Positions 5,943-57,675 of a stretch of 64,000 bases of DNA are shown piece after piece. Where the stretch lies: positions 602,906 through 666,905 of the forward strand of contig NZ_ML636798.1 in assembly GCF_006476065.1 (NCBI RefSeq), written 5' to 3'. Position 1 is the stretch's first letter. Every line of letters starts with the position of its first letter. This DNA comes from Cognatiluteimonas lumbrici. GTDB lineage: Bacteria > Pseudomonadota > Gammaproteobacteria > Xanthomonadales > Xanthomonadaceae. A program made the position numbers and the translations under genes. Below the pieces are notes generated by a model. The model did not search any database. It was not told where the DNA came from and saw only the letters and a list, made by a program, of their open reading frames with translations.

Positions 5943-5993
5943 GTGGGAGCGGCGGAAGCCGCGATGCCGAATCGCGGCTTCCGCCGCTCCCAC
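5943..5993. repeat. REP-like inverted pair between dnaJ and dapB
   Basis: Two perfectly complementary 23-bp arms (5943-5965 and 5971-5993) flank a 5-base loop. The arm starts GTGGGAGCGGCGGAAGCCGC. The right arm ends on the first base of the dnaJ stop codon complement, so the element abuts dnaJ with no spacer. As RNA it would form a very strong hairpin after dnaJ and may limit readthrough or protect the transcript end. Confidence 0.9.
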
Positions 5994-27810: not shown

Positions 27811-27864
27811 TGTGGGAGCGGCGGAAGCCGCGATATCGCCATCGCGGCTCCCGCCGCTCCCACA
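27811..27864. repeat. REP-like inverted pair upstream of zwf
   Basis: 24-bp arms (27811-27834, 27841-27864) with one mismatch and a 6-base loop. The arm begins TGTGGGAGCGGCGGAAGCCG, the same family as the element next to dnaJ. It sits between the OmpA-like lipoprotein stop and the zwf start and would form a strong hairpin on either strand. Confidence 0.9.
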
Positions 27865-28688: not shown

Positions 28689-29813
28689 TCATGCCGTCGG
28701 ACCGCCGCCCAGGTAAATGCGCGGGATCCGCTCGTTGAGGCCGGTCAGGATCTCGTAGGGAATGGTCCCCGCCGCCTCGGCCACGGCCTCGACACCGATG
28801 GCCTCCCCGCCCTGCCGCCCGACCAGGACCACCTCGTCCTCGTTGAACGCGCTGTCCTGGCCGATGTCCACCATGAACTGGTCCATGCACACGCGCCCGG
28901 CGATCGGGCGGCGGCGGCCACCGACCAGTACCTCGCCGCGCGAGGACAGCGCGCGCGGCCAGCCGTCGCCGTAGCCGACCGGCACCGTCACCACGCGGGT
29001 GTCGCGCCGGGGTGCCCAGGTCGCGCCATAGCTCACCGGGCTGCCCGCGCGCACGACCTTGAAGTAGACCACCTGGGAGACCAGCGACAGCGCCGGCCGC
29101 AACGCCAGCGGACGCGCGCTCGCCGGGTCGGGCTGCACCCCGTACAGCGCGATCCCGGGCCGCACGAGGTCCAGCCAGGTCTCCGGGAAGTGCAGCACGC
29201 CGCCGGAGTTGGCCAGGTGTCGCAGCGGCATCGGCGCGCCCAGGCGCTCGAAGTGCGCGCAGGCCTCGGCAAAGCGCTCCACCTGCAGCGCGGTCATCGG
29301 CGAGGCCGGATCGTCGGCGCAGGCCAGGTGCGAGTAGACGCCCTTGATCGTGCACCAGGGCGAGGCCACGGCCGCCTCGATGAAGGGCCGGCACGAATAG
29401 CTGTGCACGCCGATCCGCTCCATGCCGGTGTCCACCTTGAGGTGCACCACGGCCTTGCGCCCGAGCGCTTCGGCCGCGGCCTCGACCTGGCGCAGCTTGG
29501 CGATCGAGGACACGGTGATCTCGAGGTCGTGCTCGAGGAAGCCGGTGAGCTGGGGGCCGAACAGGCCGCCGAGCACCAGGATCGGGACGCGCACGCCGGC
29601 CTGGCGCAGGGCGATGCCCTCCTCCAGGAAGGCGACGCCGAGCTGGTCGATGCCTTGCGCCTGCAGGTGCAGGGCCACGGGGACGAGGCCGTGGCCGTAG
29701 GCATTCGCCTTGACGATGCCCATGACCGGAACCCCCACCCGGCCGCGGACCGCGGCGAGGTTGTGGCCGATGGCGTCGAGGTCGACGAGGATCCGGGTAG
29801 GCCGTTGGCTCAT
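28689..29813 (-). CDS. alr: Alanine racemase
   Basis: 374 residues. A PLP enzyme that makes D-alanine for peptidoglycan. The PLP lysine is in VMGIVKANAYGHGLVPVAL. The second catalytic base is the Tyr in GSPVSYGATWAP, and CMDQFMVDIG is conserved near the C-terminus. The ATG at 29813 has no Shine-Dalgarno but has a near-consensus -10, TACAAT, six bases upstream. It lies downstream of dnaB, from which it is separated by a gap full of palindromes. Confidence 0.97.
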   Translation of the reverse strand: MSQRPTRILVDLDAIGHNLAAVRGRVGVPVMGIVKANAYGHGLVPVALHLQAQGIDQLGVAFLEEGIALRQAGVRVPILVLGGLFGPQLTGFLEHDLEITVSSIAKLRQVEAAAEALGRKAVVHLKVDTGMERIGVHSYSCRPFIEAAVASPWCTIKGVYSHLACADDPASPMTALQVERFAEACAHFERLGAPMPLRHLANSGGVLHFPETWLDLVRPGIALYGVQPDPASARPLALRPALSLVSQVVYFKVVRAGSPVSYGATWAPRRDTRVVTVPVGYGDGWPRALSSRGEVLVGGRRRPIAGRVCMDQFMVDIGQDSAFNEDEVVLVGRQGGEAIGVEAVAEAAGTIPYEILTGLNERIPRIYLGGGPTA

Positions 29814-29819
29814 CCGACG

Positions 29820-29825
29820 ATTGTA
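29820..29825 (-). promoter_or_regulatory. Candidate alr -10 (leaderless type)
   Basis: TACAAT on the minus strand, six bases before the alr ATG. No ribosome binding site lies between. The -35 is weak. Confidence 0.5.
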
Positions 29826-29851
29826 GGGCCGGCTTCGGGGTGGGCGCTCCC

Positions 29852-29923
29852 GCGGGAAAGGCGGTGCCCCTGCCCTCCTCCAGAGCGTTTTGAGTCGTCG
29901 GTCAGGGGCACCGCCTTTCCCGC
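29852..29923. repeat. Large palindrome A in the alr-dnaB gap
   Basis: Perfect 21-bp arms at 29852-29872 and 29903-29923 (arm begins GCGGGAAAGGCGGTGCCCCT) with a 30-base loop. Its sequence differs from the GTGG/GTAG REP-like elements elsewhere in the window. Confidence 0.9.
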
Positions 29924-29932
29924 TACGCTCCG

Positions 29933-29966
29933 CCGGCACTCGAAGCCTGTGGCTTCTTGTTGCCGG
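29933..29966. repeat. Nested hairpin between the two large palindromes
   Basis: Inner arms GAAGCC (29942-29947) and GGCTTC (29951-29956) lie inside outer arms CCGGCA (29933-29938) and TGCCGG (29961-29966). Confidence 0.6.
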
Positions 29967-29993
29967 AGGCACGCTATCCGCTTGTGAACGCGC

Positions 29994-30079
29994 TGCCGGG
30001 TGGGGTAGCCCTTTGGGCGAAATCAAGGAGGAGGCCGAAGGCCGGGGGACATTCGCCCAAAGGGCTACCCCACCCGGCA
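29994..30079. repeat. Large palindrome B in the alr-dnaB gap
   Basis: Perfect 28-bp arms at 29994-30021 and 30052-30079 (arm begins TGCCGGGTGGGGTAGCCCTT) with a 30-base loop that contains GGCCGAAGGCC. With palindrome A it fills most of the 293 bases between alr and dnaB; no gene is seen there. Confidence 0.92.
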
Positions 30080-30106
30080 AGAAGCGCCCACCCGAAGAGT
30101 CGCGCG

Positions 30107-31513
30107 TTACTCGAAGCTGCCGATGGAGTCGTGGGCGAGGTTGTCGAAGCGGGTGTACTCGCCGAAGAACTTGAGCTTGATCGAGCCCGTGGGGCCGTTT
30201 CGCTGCTTGCCGATGATGATCTCGGCCAGTCCCTTGTCCGGCGAATTCTCCTTGTTGTAGTACTCGTCGCGGTAGATGAAGACGATCACGTCCGCGTCCT
30301 GCTCGATGGCGCCGGACTCGCGCAGGTCGGCCATCATCGGGCGCTTGTCGGTGCGCGTCTCCAGCGAGCGGTTGAGCTGCGACAGCGCGATCACCGGGAC
30401 GTTGAGCTCCTTGGCCAGGCCCTTGAGCGAGCGCGAGATCTCCGAGATCTCGGTGGCGCGGTTCTCGTTGTTGCCGGGGACGGCCATGAGCTGCAGGTAG
30501 TCGATCACGATCAGCCCGAGCCCGTGCTCCTTCTTGATCCGGCGCGCCTTGGCGCGCAGCTTCTCTGGCGACAGCGCCGGCTCGTCGTCGATGAAGATCC
30601 TGGCCTCGCGCAGCAGCCGGATGGCGCTAGTCACCCGGCTCCAGTCCTCGTCCTCGAGCTGGCCGGTGCGCAGGCGGGTGGCGTTGATCCGGCCGACCGA
30701 GGAGATCAGGCGCAGCGCGAGCTGGCTGGCCGACATTTCCATCGAGAAGATCGCGACCGGCTGCTTCGACTTCATGGCCGCGTACTCGGCCATGTTCAGC
30801 GCCAGCGTGGTTTTTCCCATGCTCGGCCTGGCCGCGAGGATCAGCAGGTCGGTCGGCTGCAGGCCGGCGGTCATCTCGTCGAACTCGGTGTAGCCGGTCG
30901 GCAGGCCGGTGACGTTGCCGCCGCTCTCGAAGCGCTTCTGCAGCACGTCGAAGGCCTCGGCCAGCGCGCTGTGCACGGACACGTAGTCCATGCGCCCGCG
31001 GGCGCTGTGCTCGGCGATGGCGAGCACGCTGGACTCGGCCGCGTCCAGGATCTCGCGGGTCTCGCGCCCGTCCGGCTGGAAGCCGTCGTTGACGATCCCG
31101 GTGCCGACCTCGATCAGCTGCCGCAGCACCGCCTTGTCGCGAACGATCTCGGCATAGGCGGTGATGTTGGCGGCAGAGGGCGTGGTGCTGGCCAGCTCGA
31201 CCAGGTAGCCGCCGCCGGCGACCAGCTCGGCCTGGCCCATGGACTCGAACCACTCGCCGAGGGTGACCGCGTCGTAGGGCCGGTTCTTCTCGGCCAGCTC
31301 GCGGATGGCGCGGAAGATGAGCTGGTGGTCGCGGCGGTAGAAGTCGTCGTCGGTGACGATGTCGGCGATGCGGTCGAAGGCATCGGGCGACAGCATCAGC
31401 CCGCCCAGCACGGCCTGCTCGGCCTCGACCGACTGCGGCGGCAGGCGGAGCTGCTCGACCCGGCTTTCGTTGTGTCCCTGGAACTCTGCGCGGAACCCCT
31501 GGCGTGCGCTCAT
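30107..31513 (-). CDS. dnaB: Replicative DNA helicase DnaB
   Basis: 468 residues from ATG 31513 (MSARQGFRAEFQG), matching the Xanthomonas N-terminus; an ATG at 31579 would add 22 less likely residues. The N-terminal collar domain has VPPQ-like LPPQSVEAEQAVLGGLML. The RecA-like motor has Walker A ARPSMGKTTLALNMAEYAA, Walker B LIVIDYLQLM and SRSLKGLAKELNVPVIALSQ. It unwinds DNA ahead of the replisome. No intein is present. A perfect DnaA box lies 116 bases upstream. Confidence 0.98.
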   Translation of the reverse strand: MSARQGFRAEFQGHNESRVEQLRLPPQSVEAEQAVLGGLMLSPDAFDRIADIVTDDDFYRRDHQLIFRAIRELAEKNRPYDAVTLGEWFESMGQAELVAGGGYLVELASTTPSAANITAYAEIVRDKAVLRQLIEVGTGIVNDGFQPDGRETREILDAAESSVLAIAEHSARGRMDYVSVHSALAEAFDVLQKRFESGGNVTGLPTGYTEFDEMTAGLQPTDLLILAARPSMGKTTLALNMAEYAAMKSKQPVAIFSMEMSASQLALRLISSVGRINATRLRTGQLEDEDWSRVTSAIRLLREARIFIDDEPALSPEKLRAKARRIKKEHGLGLIVIDYLQLMAVPGNNENRATEISEISRSLKGLAKELNVPVIALSQLNRSLETRTDKRPMMADLRESGAIEQDADVIVFIYRDEYYNKENSPDKGLAEIIIGKQRNGPTGSIKLKFFGEYTRFDNLAHDSIGSFE

Positions 31514-31628
31514 CAGCGATGCAACTCCCCTGGCCGGACCGTCGCGGCGATCCTGTTGTTGTTGTGTGCCGATCGTCATCGTAGTCGGGCCTGCCCCACA
31601 GTGGTTGCAGATAACTCTGTCGCCAACC

Positions 31629-56799: not shown

Positions 56800-57675
56800 A
56801 TGCCGGACAAGCCGCAGCCCTGGTTCGCCCTCCCCCGCCACCGCTTGGTGGTGCTGGAAGGCCGCGACGCGCTTGCGTTTGCGCAGGCACAGTTCATGTC
56901 CGACCTGCGCCCGCTGCAGCCGGGCCAGTGGCACTGGAGCGGCTGGCTGACCCCGAAGGGCCGCGTCATCGCCCTGTTCGCGCTGCTGGTGCGCGACCCG
57001 GAAACCGCGTGGCTGGTGCTGCACGACGCGGAACCGGACGCATTCGCATCGGCGCTGCAGCGCTTCGTGTTCCGCAGCAAGGTGGCGATTTCGGTGCCGG
57101 GGGATGCGGTGATCTCCGGAGCCTTGGGTAGGAGCCGCCATGGCGGCGAGCCTTTCCCCGATTCCCAAGCAACCATGGAGAAACTCGCCGCCATGGCGGC
57201 TCCCACCGAAGCCTTGCTGGACATGGGCGGAGAAGGTGGTGGCAGGACCCTGCGGATTTCGGGCGAGCGCGGCGTCGAGGACGCGGCAGCGGTCGCGCGC
57301 TGGGACGCGTTCGACCTGCGGCACGGGCTGCCGCGCCTGCCGCCGTCGCAGGCGGAACAGTGGACGCCGCAGCAGCTCTCGCTGGAGCGCCTGCGGGCCT
57401 TCAGCGTCAAGAAGGGTTGTTATCCGGGCCAGGAAATCGTGTCGCGCACGCACTTCCTGGGCAAGGCGAAGCGGGGACTGGTGCTGCTGGAGGGCGATAC
57501 GCCGTTCGAGGCCGGCAGCGAAGTCCGGGCCGGGGACCGCGCGATCGGCACCGTGGTGAGTGCCGCGGGGACGCTGGCGCTGGCGGTCATGCCGCTGGAG
57601 CGCGAGCCCGGCGACCTGCAGGTCGCAGGCGCGCCTGTGCGCGAGCGACCGCTGCTGGACGGCCTCGCGCGCTGA
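56800..57675 (+). CDS. ygfZ: tRNA-modifying/Fe-S protein YgfZ (folate-binding, GcvT-like)
   Basis: 291 residues. It supports Fe-S enzymes such as MiaB. GcvT-like N-terminal domain with RHRLVVLEGRDALAFAQAQF, then the family motif KKGCYPGQEIVSRTHFLGKA and a short beta barrel. Residues about 109-139 (LGRSRHGGEPFPDSQATMEK and onward) are encoded by a REP-like inverted repeat inserted in frame at 57129-57205; they do not look like family sequence. The rest of the gene appears intact, so it may still work. Divergent from the sdh genes. Confidence 0.92.
   Translation: MPDKPQPWFALPRHRLVVLEGRDALAFAQAQFMSDLRPLQPGQWHWSGWLTPKGRVIALFALLVRDPETAWLVLHDAEPDAFASALQRFVFRSKVAISVPGDAVISGALGRSRHGGEPFPDSQATMEKLAAMAAPTEALLDMGGEGGGRTLRISGERGVEDAAAVARWDAFDLRHGLPRLPPSQAEQWTPQQLSLERLRAFSVKKGCYPGQEIVSRTHFLGKAKRGLVLLEGDTPFEAGSEVRAGDRAIGTVVSAAGTLALAVMPLEREPGDLQVAGAPVRERPLLDGLAR
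57129..57205. repeat. REP-like palindrome inserted in frame within ygfZ
   Basis: 22-bp arms at 57129-57150 and 57184-57205 match at 21 positions, around a 33-base loop. Each arm contains GCCGCCATGGCGGC. GTAG at 57128-57131 and CCCAC at the far end resemble the ends of the other elements here. Confidence 0.9.

Follow-up and report, generated by a model that had tools for sequence, protein, structure and literature searches.

An inverted pair of long structured hairpins between dnaB and alr of Cognatiluteimonas lumbrici, probably a non-autonomous mobile intergenic repeat

The interval between dnaB and alr in Cognatiluteimonas lumbrici contains a repeat unit made up of two long, mutually inverted hairpins between short inverted ends. 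This unit is probably a non-autonomous mobile intergenic repeat of the REPIN/BIME- and MITE-like class, equipped with a structured recognition hairpin. Its copies are dispersed, comparison with sister species shows it to be an insertion here, its pairing persists while the stem sequence turns over, its internal loop is held, and its fold is under selection on one strand. The spread of the copies would be owed to a protein acting in trans. The hairpin, folded from a single strand, would be recognised by this protein by way of its purine-rich internal loop, and a stem length of ~28-33 bp would set the distance to the TTCRGGG ends.

The repeat unit and its fold

The unit lies at positions 29833-30097 (~265 bp) of the window, the whole 64,000-nucleotide stretch of DNA that was analysed. 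It is flanked by alr (start ~29813) and dnaB (30107-31579), both on the minus strand. The left terminal inverted repeat, CTTCGGGGTGGGCGCT (29833-29848, plus strand), pairs with the right one, AGCGCCCACCCGAAG (30083-30097, plus strand), and these outer ends, which resemble those of other copies, close the fold of the entire unit. Hairpin 1, on the minus strand, has perfect 21-bp arms (alr-side arm 29852-29872, second arm 29903-29923) around a conserved loop (29875-29899) that reads GACGACTCAAAACGCTCTGGAGGAG on the minus strand. A nested middle hairpin, CTCCGCCGGCA..GAAGCC TGT GGCTTC..TGCCGGAG, lies at ~29928-29968. Hairpin 2, on the plus strand, has perfect 28-bp arms, of which the left (29994-30021) takes in the GAA of the core and the right occupies 30052-30079. 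Between them lie the 5′ side of the core's purine internal loop, ATCAAGGAGGAGGC (30022-30035), whose final bases run into an inner hairpin; the variable inner hairpin itself, GGCCGAAGGCC (30034-30043, limits approximate), which is paired, subject to compensatory change and of variable length; and the 3′ side of the internal loop, GGGGGACA (30044-30051). Thirty bases separate the arms in each hairpin, and a conserved core is present inside both of these 'loops'. The first-pass annotation had described the two perfect palindromes and the nested hairpin with coordinates right to the base; the real unit exceeds them and is bounded by the outer inverted ends.

The three longest perfect inverted repeats in the window measure 28, 23 and 21 bp, and both hairpins belong to this set. 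Of five runs with first-order Markov copies, four produced no inverted repeat ≥14 bp and the fifth a single 14-mer. For the 281-nt region the folding energy is -187 kcal/mol, and z is -10.4 for RNA and -11.1 for DNA.

Copies in the genome and insertion at the site

Sequence searches of the 2.36-Mb genome from which the window is taken (G000) found eight copies of hairpin 1 and four of hairpin 2. A second composite carries both hairpins at full length and in the same order (G000:C1:48.8-49.1 kb), and a relative of the middle hairpin, TCGAAGCCYGYGGCTTCTTG, adjoins three other copies. Near-identical copies elsewhere in the genome dispose of the two concerns raised with the original observation, namely an assembly artefact and single-copy arms without conservation. 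The core of hairpin 1 was found in this genome only, with no match at ≤2 mismatches in 39 relatives.

A stretch of 276 bp (29832-30106) has no counterpart in two sister genomes, where its place is taken by 9 bp (G003) or by 70 bp of unrelated sequence (G001). Since these sister species lack the unit here, it is an insertion in this genome. The place between dnaB and alr, which the first-pass annotation had pointed out, carries no particular significance: most sister species have no insert there, and other copies stand beside ordinary genes of many kinds. The dnaB of one sister species (G003:C22, L061) contains an intein, inserted in frame and carrying both LAGLIDADG and splicing domains; the dnaB of the window has no intein. 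Two further loci, L041 (G006:C27) and L027 (G003), combine a hairpin-1-type stem (GCGGGAAAGG..) with a hairpin-2 core, which suggests a modular exchange of stems and cores.

Distribution of the hairpin 2 family

Among the matches listed, more than 119 stretches contain GAAATMAAGGAGGAGG..GGGGGACATTC, the hairpin 2 core. They come from Lysobacteraceae (Luteimonas, Lysobacter, Thermomonas, Stenotrophomonas and others) and from Comamonadaceae and other Burkholderiales (Variovorax, Ramlibacter, Hydrogenophaga and Rhodoferax). A covariance model of hairpin 2 was positive in 57 of 297 Lysobacteraceae genomes, representing 7 of 54 genera, and in 4 of 369 genomes of a class-wide sample; within the genus of the window, 5-6 of 9 genomes carry the family. 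Two Variovorax genomes hold 91 and at least 150 copies, and two Ramlibacter genomes hold 53-54. A few units are carried on Variovorax megaplasmids, while a search of 2.9 million viral contigs for a phage vehicle returned a single match. The earlier proposal of a second repeat family, separate from GTGG/GTAG REPs, is thus borne out by further copies in the genome and in relatives. No family of Rfam 15 reaches its gathering score at the site, relaxed thresholds yielding only miRNA-like hairpins matched by chance and, weakly, CcsR1. A literature search with the core strings, which had most subscription journals outside its reach, found no paper. Hairpin 2 is thus a member of a large family of folded repeats in two proteobacterial groups, a family that is apparently undescribed.

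Architecture and genomic context

Close hairpin pairs follow one layout: all 103 that were counted are arranged minus-then-plus, with their functional strands facing outward, and a few same-strand neighbouring hairpins fall outside this count. Pair spacing in one genome (G407) is 141, 143 or 145. Arms outside GAA/TTC are mostly 24-33 bp long and hairpins measure 72-105 nt. Variovorax units span ~250-261 bp between TTCRGGGCG ends, whose distance from the core is constant at 38-39 nt. Units within one Variovorax genome are 86-96% identical, with one outlier at 73%, and similarity drops at these ends. Two Variovorax species (L171 and L104) share an orthologous unit, of which one species has lost hairpin A and the other hairpin B.

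With gene calls made by a simple codon-usage script, no copy lies inside a predicted gene, and 26 contexts are convergent versus 6 divergent. Between co-directional genes the orientation of copies to transcription is random (25 versus 24). Their intergenic position, together with the ability of template switching to perfect arms, would fit passive palindromes, that is, intrinsic terminators or template-switch-perfected hairpins with no recognition role. However, a scan of 29700-30250 for a GC-rich hairpin followed by a T run found 0 intrinsic terminators, and with the T tract absent the terminator role that the first-pass annotation had proposed for examination is unsupported. Random orientation to transcription also speaks against passive palindromes, as does the presence of an invariant core within stems of unrelated sequence. 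A strand-specific G.T bias, described below, would be expected neither of template switching nor of a double-stranded cruciform. Passive palindromes as the full explanation are refuted by the conserved core and the polarity, and very little credence is left to any form of this account.

Selection on structure and on one strand

In 59 diverged copies of hairpin 2 (stems <80% identical), the stem sequence is almost wholly replaced with its pairing kept, while the internal loop, purine-rich GAAATMAAGGAGGAG / GGGGGACATTC, stays conserved. Across these copies 90% of cells are paired, and double changes occur in 30 of 35 pairs. Covariation is 0.63, compared with 0.16 in shuffled and 0.10-0.14 in slid controls. 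Compensatory double changes are thus plentiful and support selection, which the first-pass annotation had offered, beside recent origin, as an explanation of the perfect arms. Hairpin 1 behaves in the same way, with 13 of 24 stem pairs doubly changed and an almost invariant loop in its eight copies.

The copies used for model building were picked by an exact core, and their core conservation is therefore partly built in. Partner hairpins were found by the covariance model and not by the core, which makes them a sample free of this bias. In partner hairpins both sides of the core loop are likewise kept, while the GAA/TTC base pairs nearly always change with compensation. Within their internal loop, A11/G3 is replaced by G11/A3 as a joint swap in six of the seven departures at this position, in several genera. 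This suggests that A11 and G3 form a non-canonical A.G pair across the loop. There is hardly any core decay in partner hairpins, a hint that resident copies are under selection and hence that they may serve the host and not mobility alone.

Mismatches in the stems are strongly asymmetric. On the GGAGGAGG strand, 81 non-redundant copies show 130 G.T mismatches versus 14 A.C; counted per copy, 59 have an excess of G.T and 2 an excess of A.C. In double-stranded DNA with random orientation to transcription the two kinds would be equal, so the G.T bias argues for selection on the fold of one strand. It points to the GGAGGAGG strand as the one selected to fold while single-stranded, as RNA or as ssDNA. 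A share of ~7% G.U-type pairs in the stems slightly favours RNA, which tolerates G.U best, over ssDNA of the kind that replication exposes to HUH transposases.

The same features are shared by a reading of the hairpins as a host regulatory RNA motif. Transcripts from the flanks would enter the inverted pair, each meeting one hairpin of functional polarity, and the GGA-rich loop would bind a CsrA/RsmA-like protein or 30S subunits and affect mRNA 3′ ends. Strand polarity, tolerance of G.U-type pairs and A.G/G.A covariation within the loop all fit this proposal, as do the little-decayed cores of resident copies and the preference for 3′ ends over divergent promoters. AAGGAGGAG and GGGGGAC are conserved and several GGA motifs occur in the sequence. 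On the other side, copies between co-directional genes take no preferred orientation, and a promoter scan of the window copy found no promoter-like site. The patchy presence of the repeats, which are missing in sister species, would be unusual for a core regulator. A regulatory RNA is an unlikely explanation on balance, and a mobile unit is preferred.

Candidate agents of mobility

Several observations count against a mobile unit: no transposase with the same ends was found, none of 27 Y1-transposase loci has a core beside it, the genome of the window contains no Y1 transposase, there is no clear target-site duplication, and partner cores are hardly decayed. The absence of a clear duplication holds for the filled/empty comparisons and for 20 Variovorax units. 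A transposase linked to the repeats had been suggested as a check, and none stands consistently beside the copies. No neighbour family is enriched, and the 140 neighbours are ordinary genes.

The hairpins could also be REPs or REPINs proper, mobilised by RAYT (TnpA-REP, a Y1 HUH transposase). Like REP/BIME/REPIN systems with RAYT, such as the GTAG families of Pseudomonas, Stenotrophomonas and Xanthomonas, they are dispersed intergenic palindromes in inverted pairs, with compensatory stems and a fold specific to one strand (PMC8266576, PMC2817692). Y1_Tnp genes are present in 17 of 22 genomes, and most genomes with copies have one to three. A RAYT is reported to have its REPs on its flanks in every case (PMC2817692), whereas the core was found within ±1.5 kb of 0 of 27 Y1_Tnp loci in these 17 genomes, and in none of the 27 does the PF01797 gene lie between two inverted copies. 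Three genomes, including that of the window, contain hairpin copies but no Y1 gene (G000, G002 and G411). By inspection of 69 diverged copies, the hairpin foot has no constant GT(A/G)G head, nor does CGTC or any other constant tetranucleotide stand beside the arms. A whole REP measures 20-40 bp (PMC3733652), well below the size of these hairpins with their much longer arms of ~25-33 bp, conserved purine internal loop and inner hairpin. Moreover, one core is common here to Comamonadaceae and Lysobacteraceae. Mobilisation by RAYT is improbable on this evidence.

The window also contains inverted pairs of GTGGGAGCGGCGGAAGCCGCGAT-type REPs with a GTGG head (5943-5993 and 27811-27864), which are ordinary REP dimers. 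They may be orphan REPs, as the genome has no Y1_Tnp gene. A perfect palindrome at 57131-57203, with 20-bp arms and a 33-base loop, starts GTAGGAGCCGCC and looks like a GTAG-headed REP pair.

A search of Variovorax sp. DXTD-1 for a parent, a gene enclosed by the same ends, returned among the end matches listed only an IS110 element inserted into a unit. The gene between two cores in this strain was considered as an autonomous parent and rejected. It is an IS110-family transposase gene (element at L291 1100-2600) with 12-bp inverted GGGACTTCTCGC/GCGAGAAGTCCC, placed exactly inside the hairpin core between GAAAT and AAAGGAGGAGG, an insertion seen once. On plasmids, relatives of this element occupy other sites, and neither there nor in other genomes do they adjoin a core. 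Judged from these sequences, the repeat is the target of the IS110 element and not its product. REPs are similarly targets of the IS110/IS1111-type ISPpu9 (PMC8450116), to which the DXTD-1 insertion adds a single case inside the present repeat.

Comparison with known repeats and significance

ERIC/IRU and Correia/NEMIS are MITE-like intergenic repeats: short, non-coding and present in many copies, with terminal inverted repeats and a fold over their whole length. The present unit resembles them in all of these respects, its terminal inverted repeats being TTCRGGGCG in Variovorax and CTTCGGGGTGGGCGCT/AGCGCCCACCCGAAG in the window. It differs in consisting of two hairpins with a strand-specific conserved core, in lacking a clear target duplication and in that its parent transposon was not found. 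CcsR-type sRNA hairpins have CCUCCUCC loops (Rfam RF02791), and the complement of both cores contains CCTCCTCC; however, the score is 19 against a gathering score of 65, and the polarity of hairpin 2 favours the GGAGGAGG strand. Possibly, though less probably than not, the repeats form a new class of structured mobile repeat, with inverted twin hairpins and a non-canonical purine loop read on one strand by a putative protein, common to Lysobacteraceae and Comamonadaceae and moved by non-RAYT machinery.

REP-like repeats are among the commonest non-coding DNA of bacteria, and the agent that spreads them is established for RAYT-linked families only. The present family offers a clean test case, being abundant, with a sharply defined core, strand polarity and no adjoining RAYT. 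Its covariance model would help to annotate many hairpins that at present lack annotation in the intergenic DNA of Variovorax, Ramlibacter, Hydrogenophaga, Luteimonas, Lysobacter and Stenotrophomonas.
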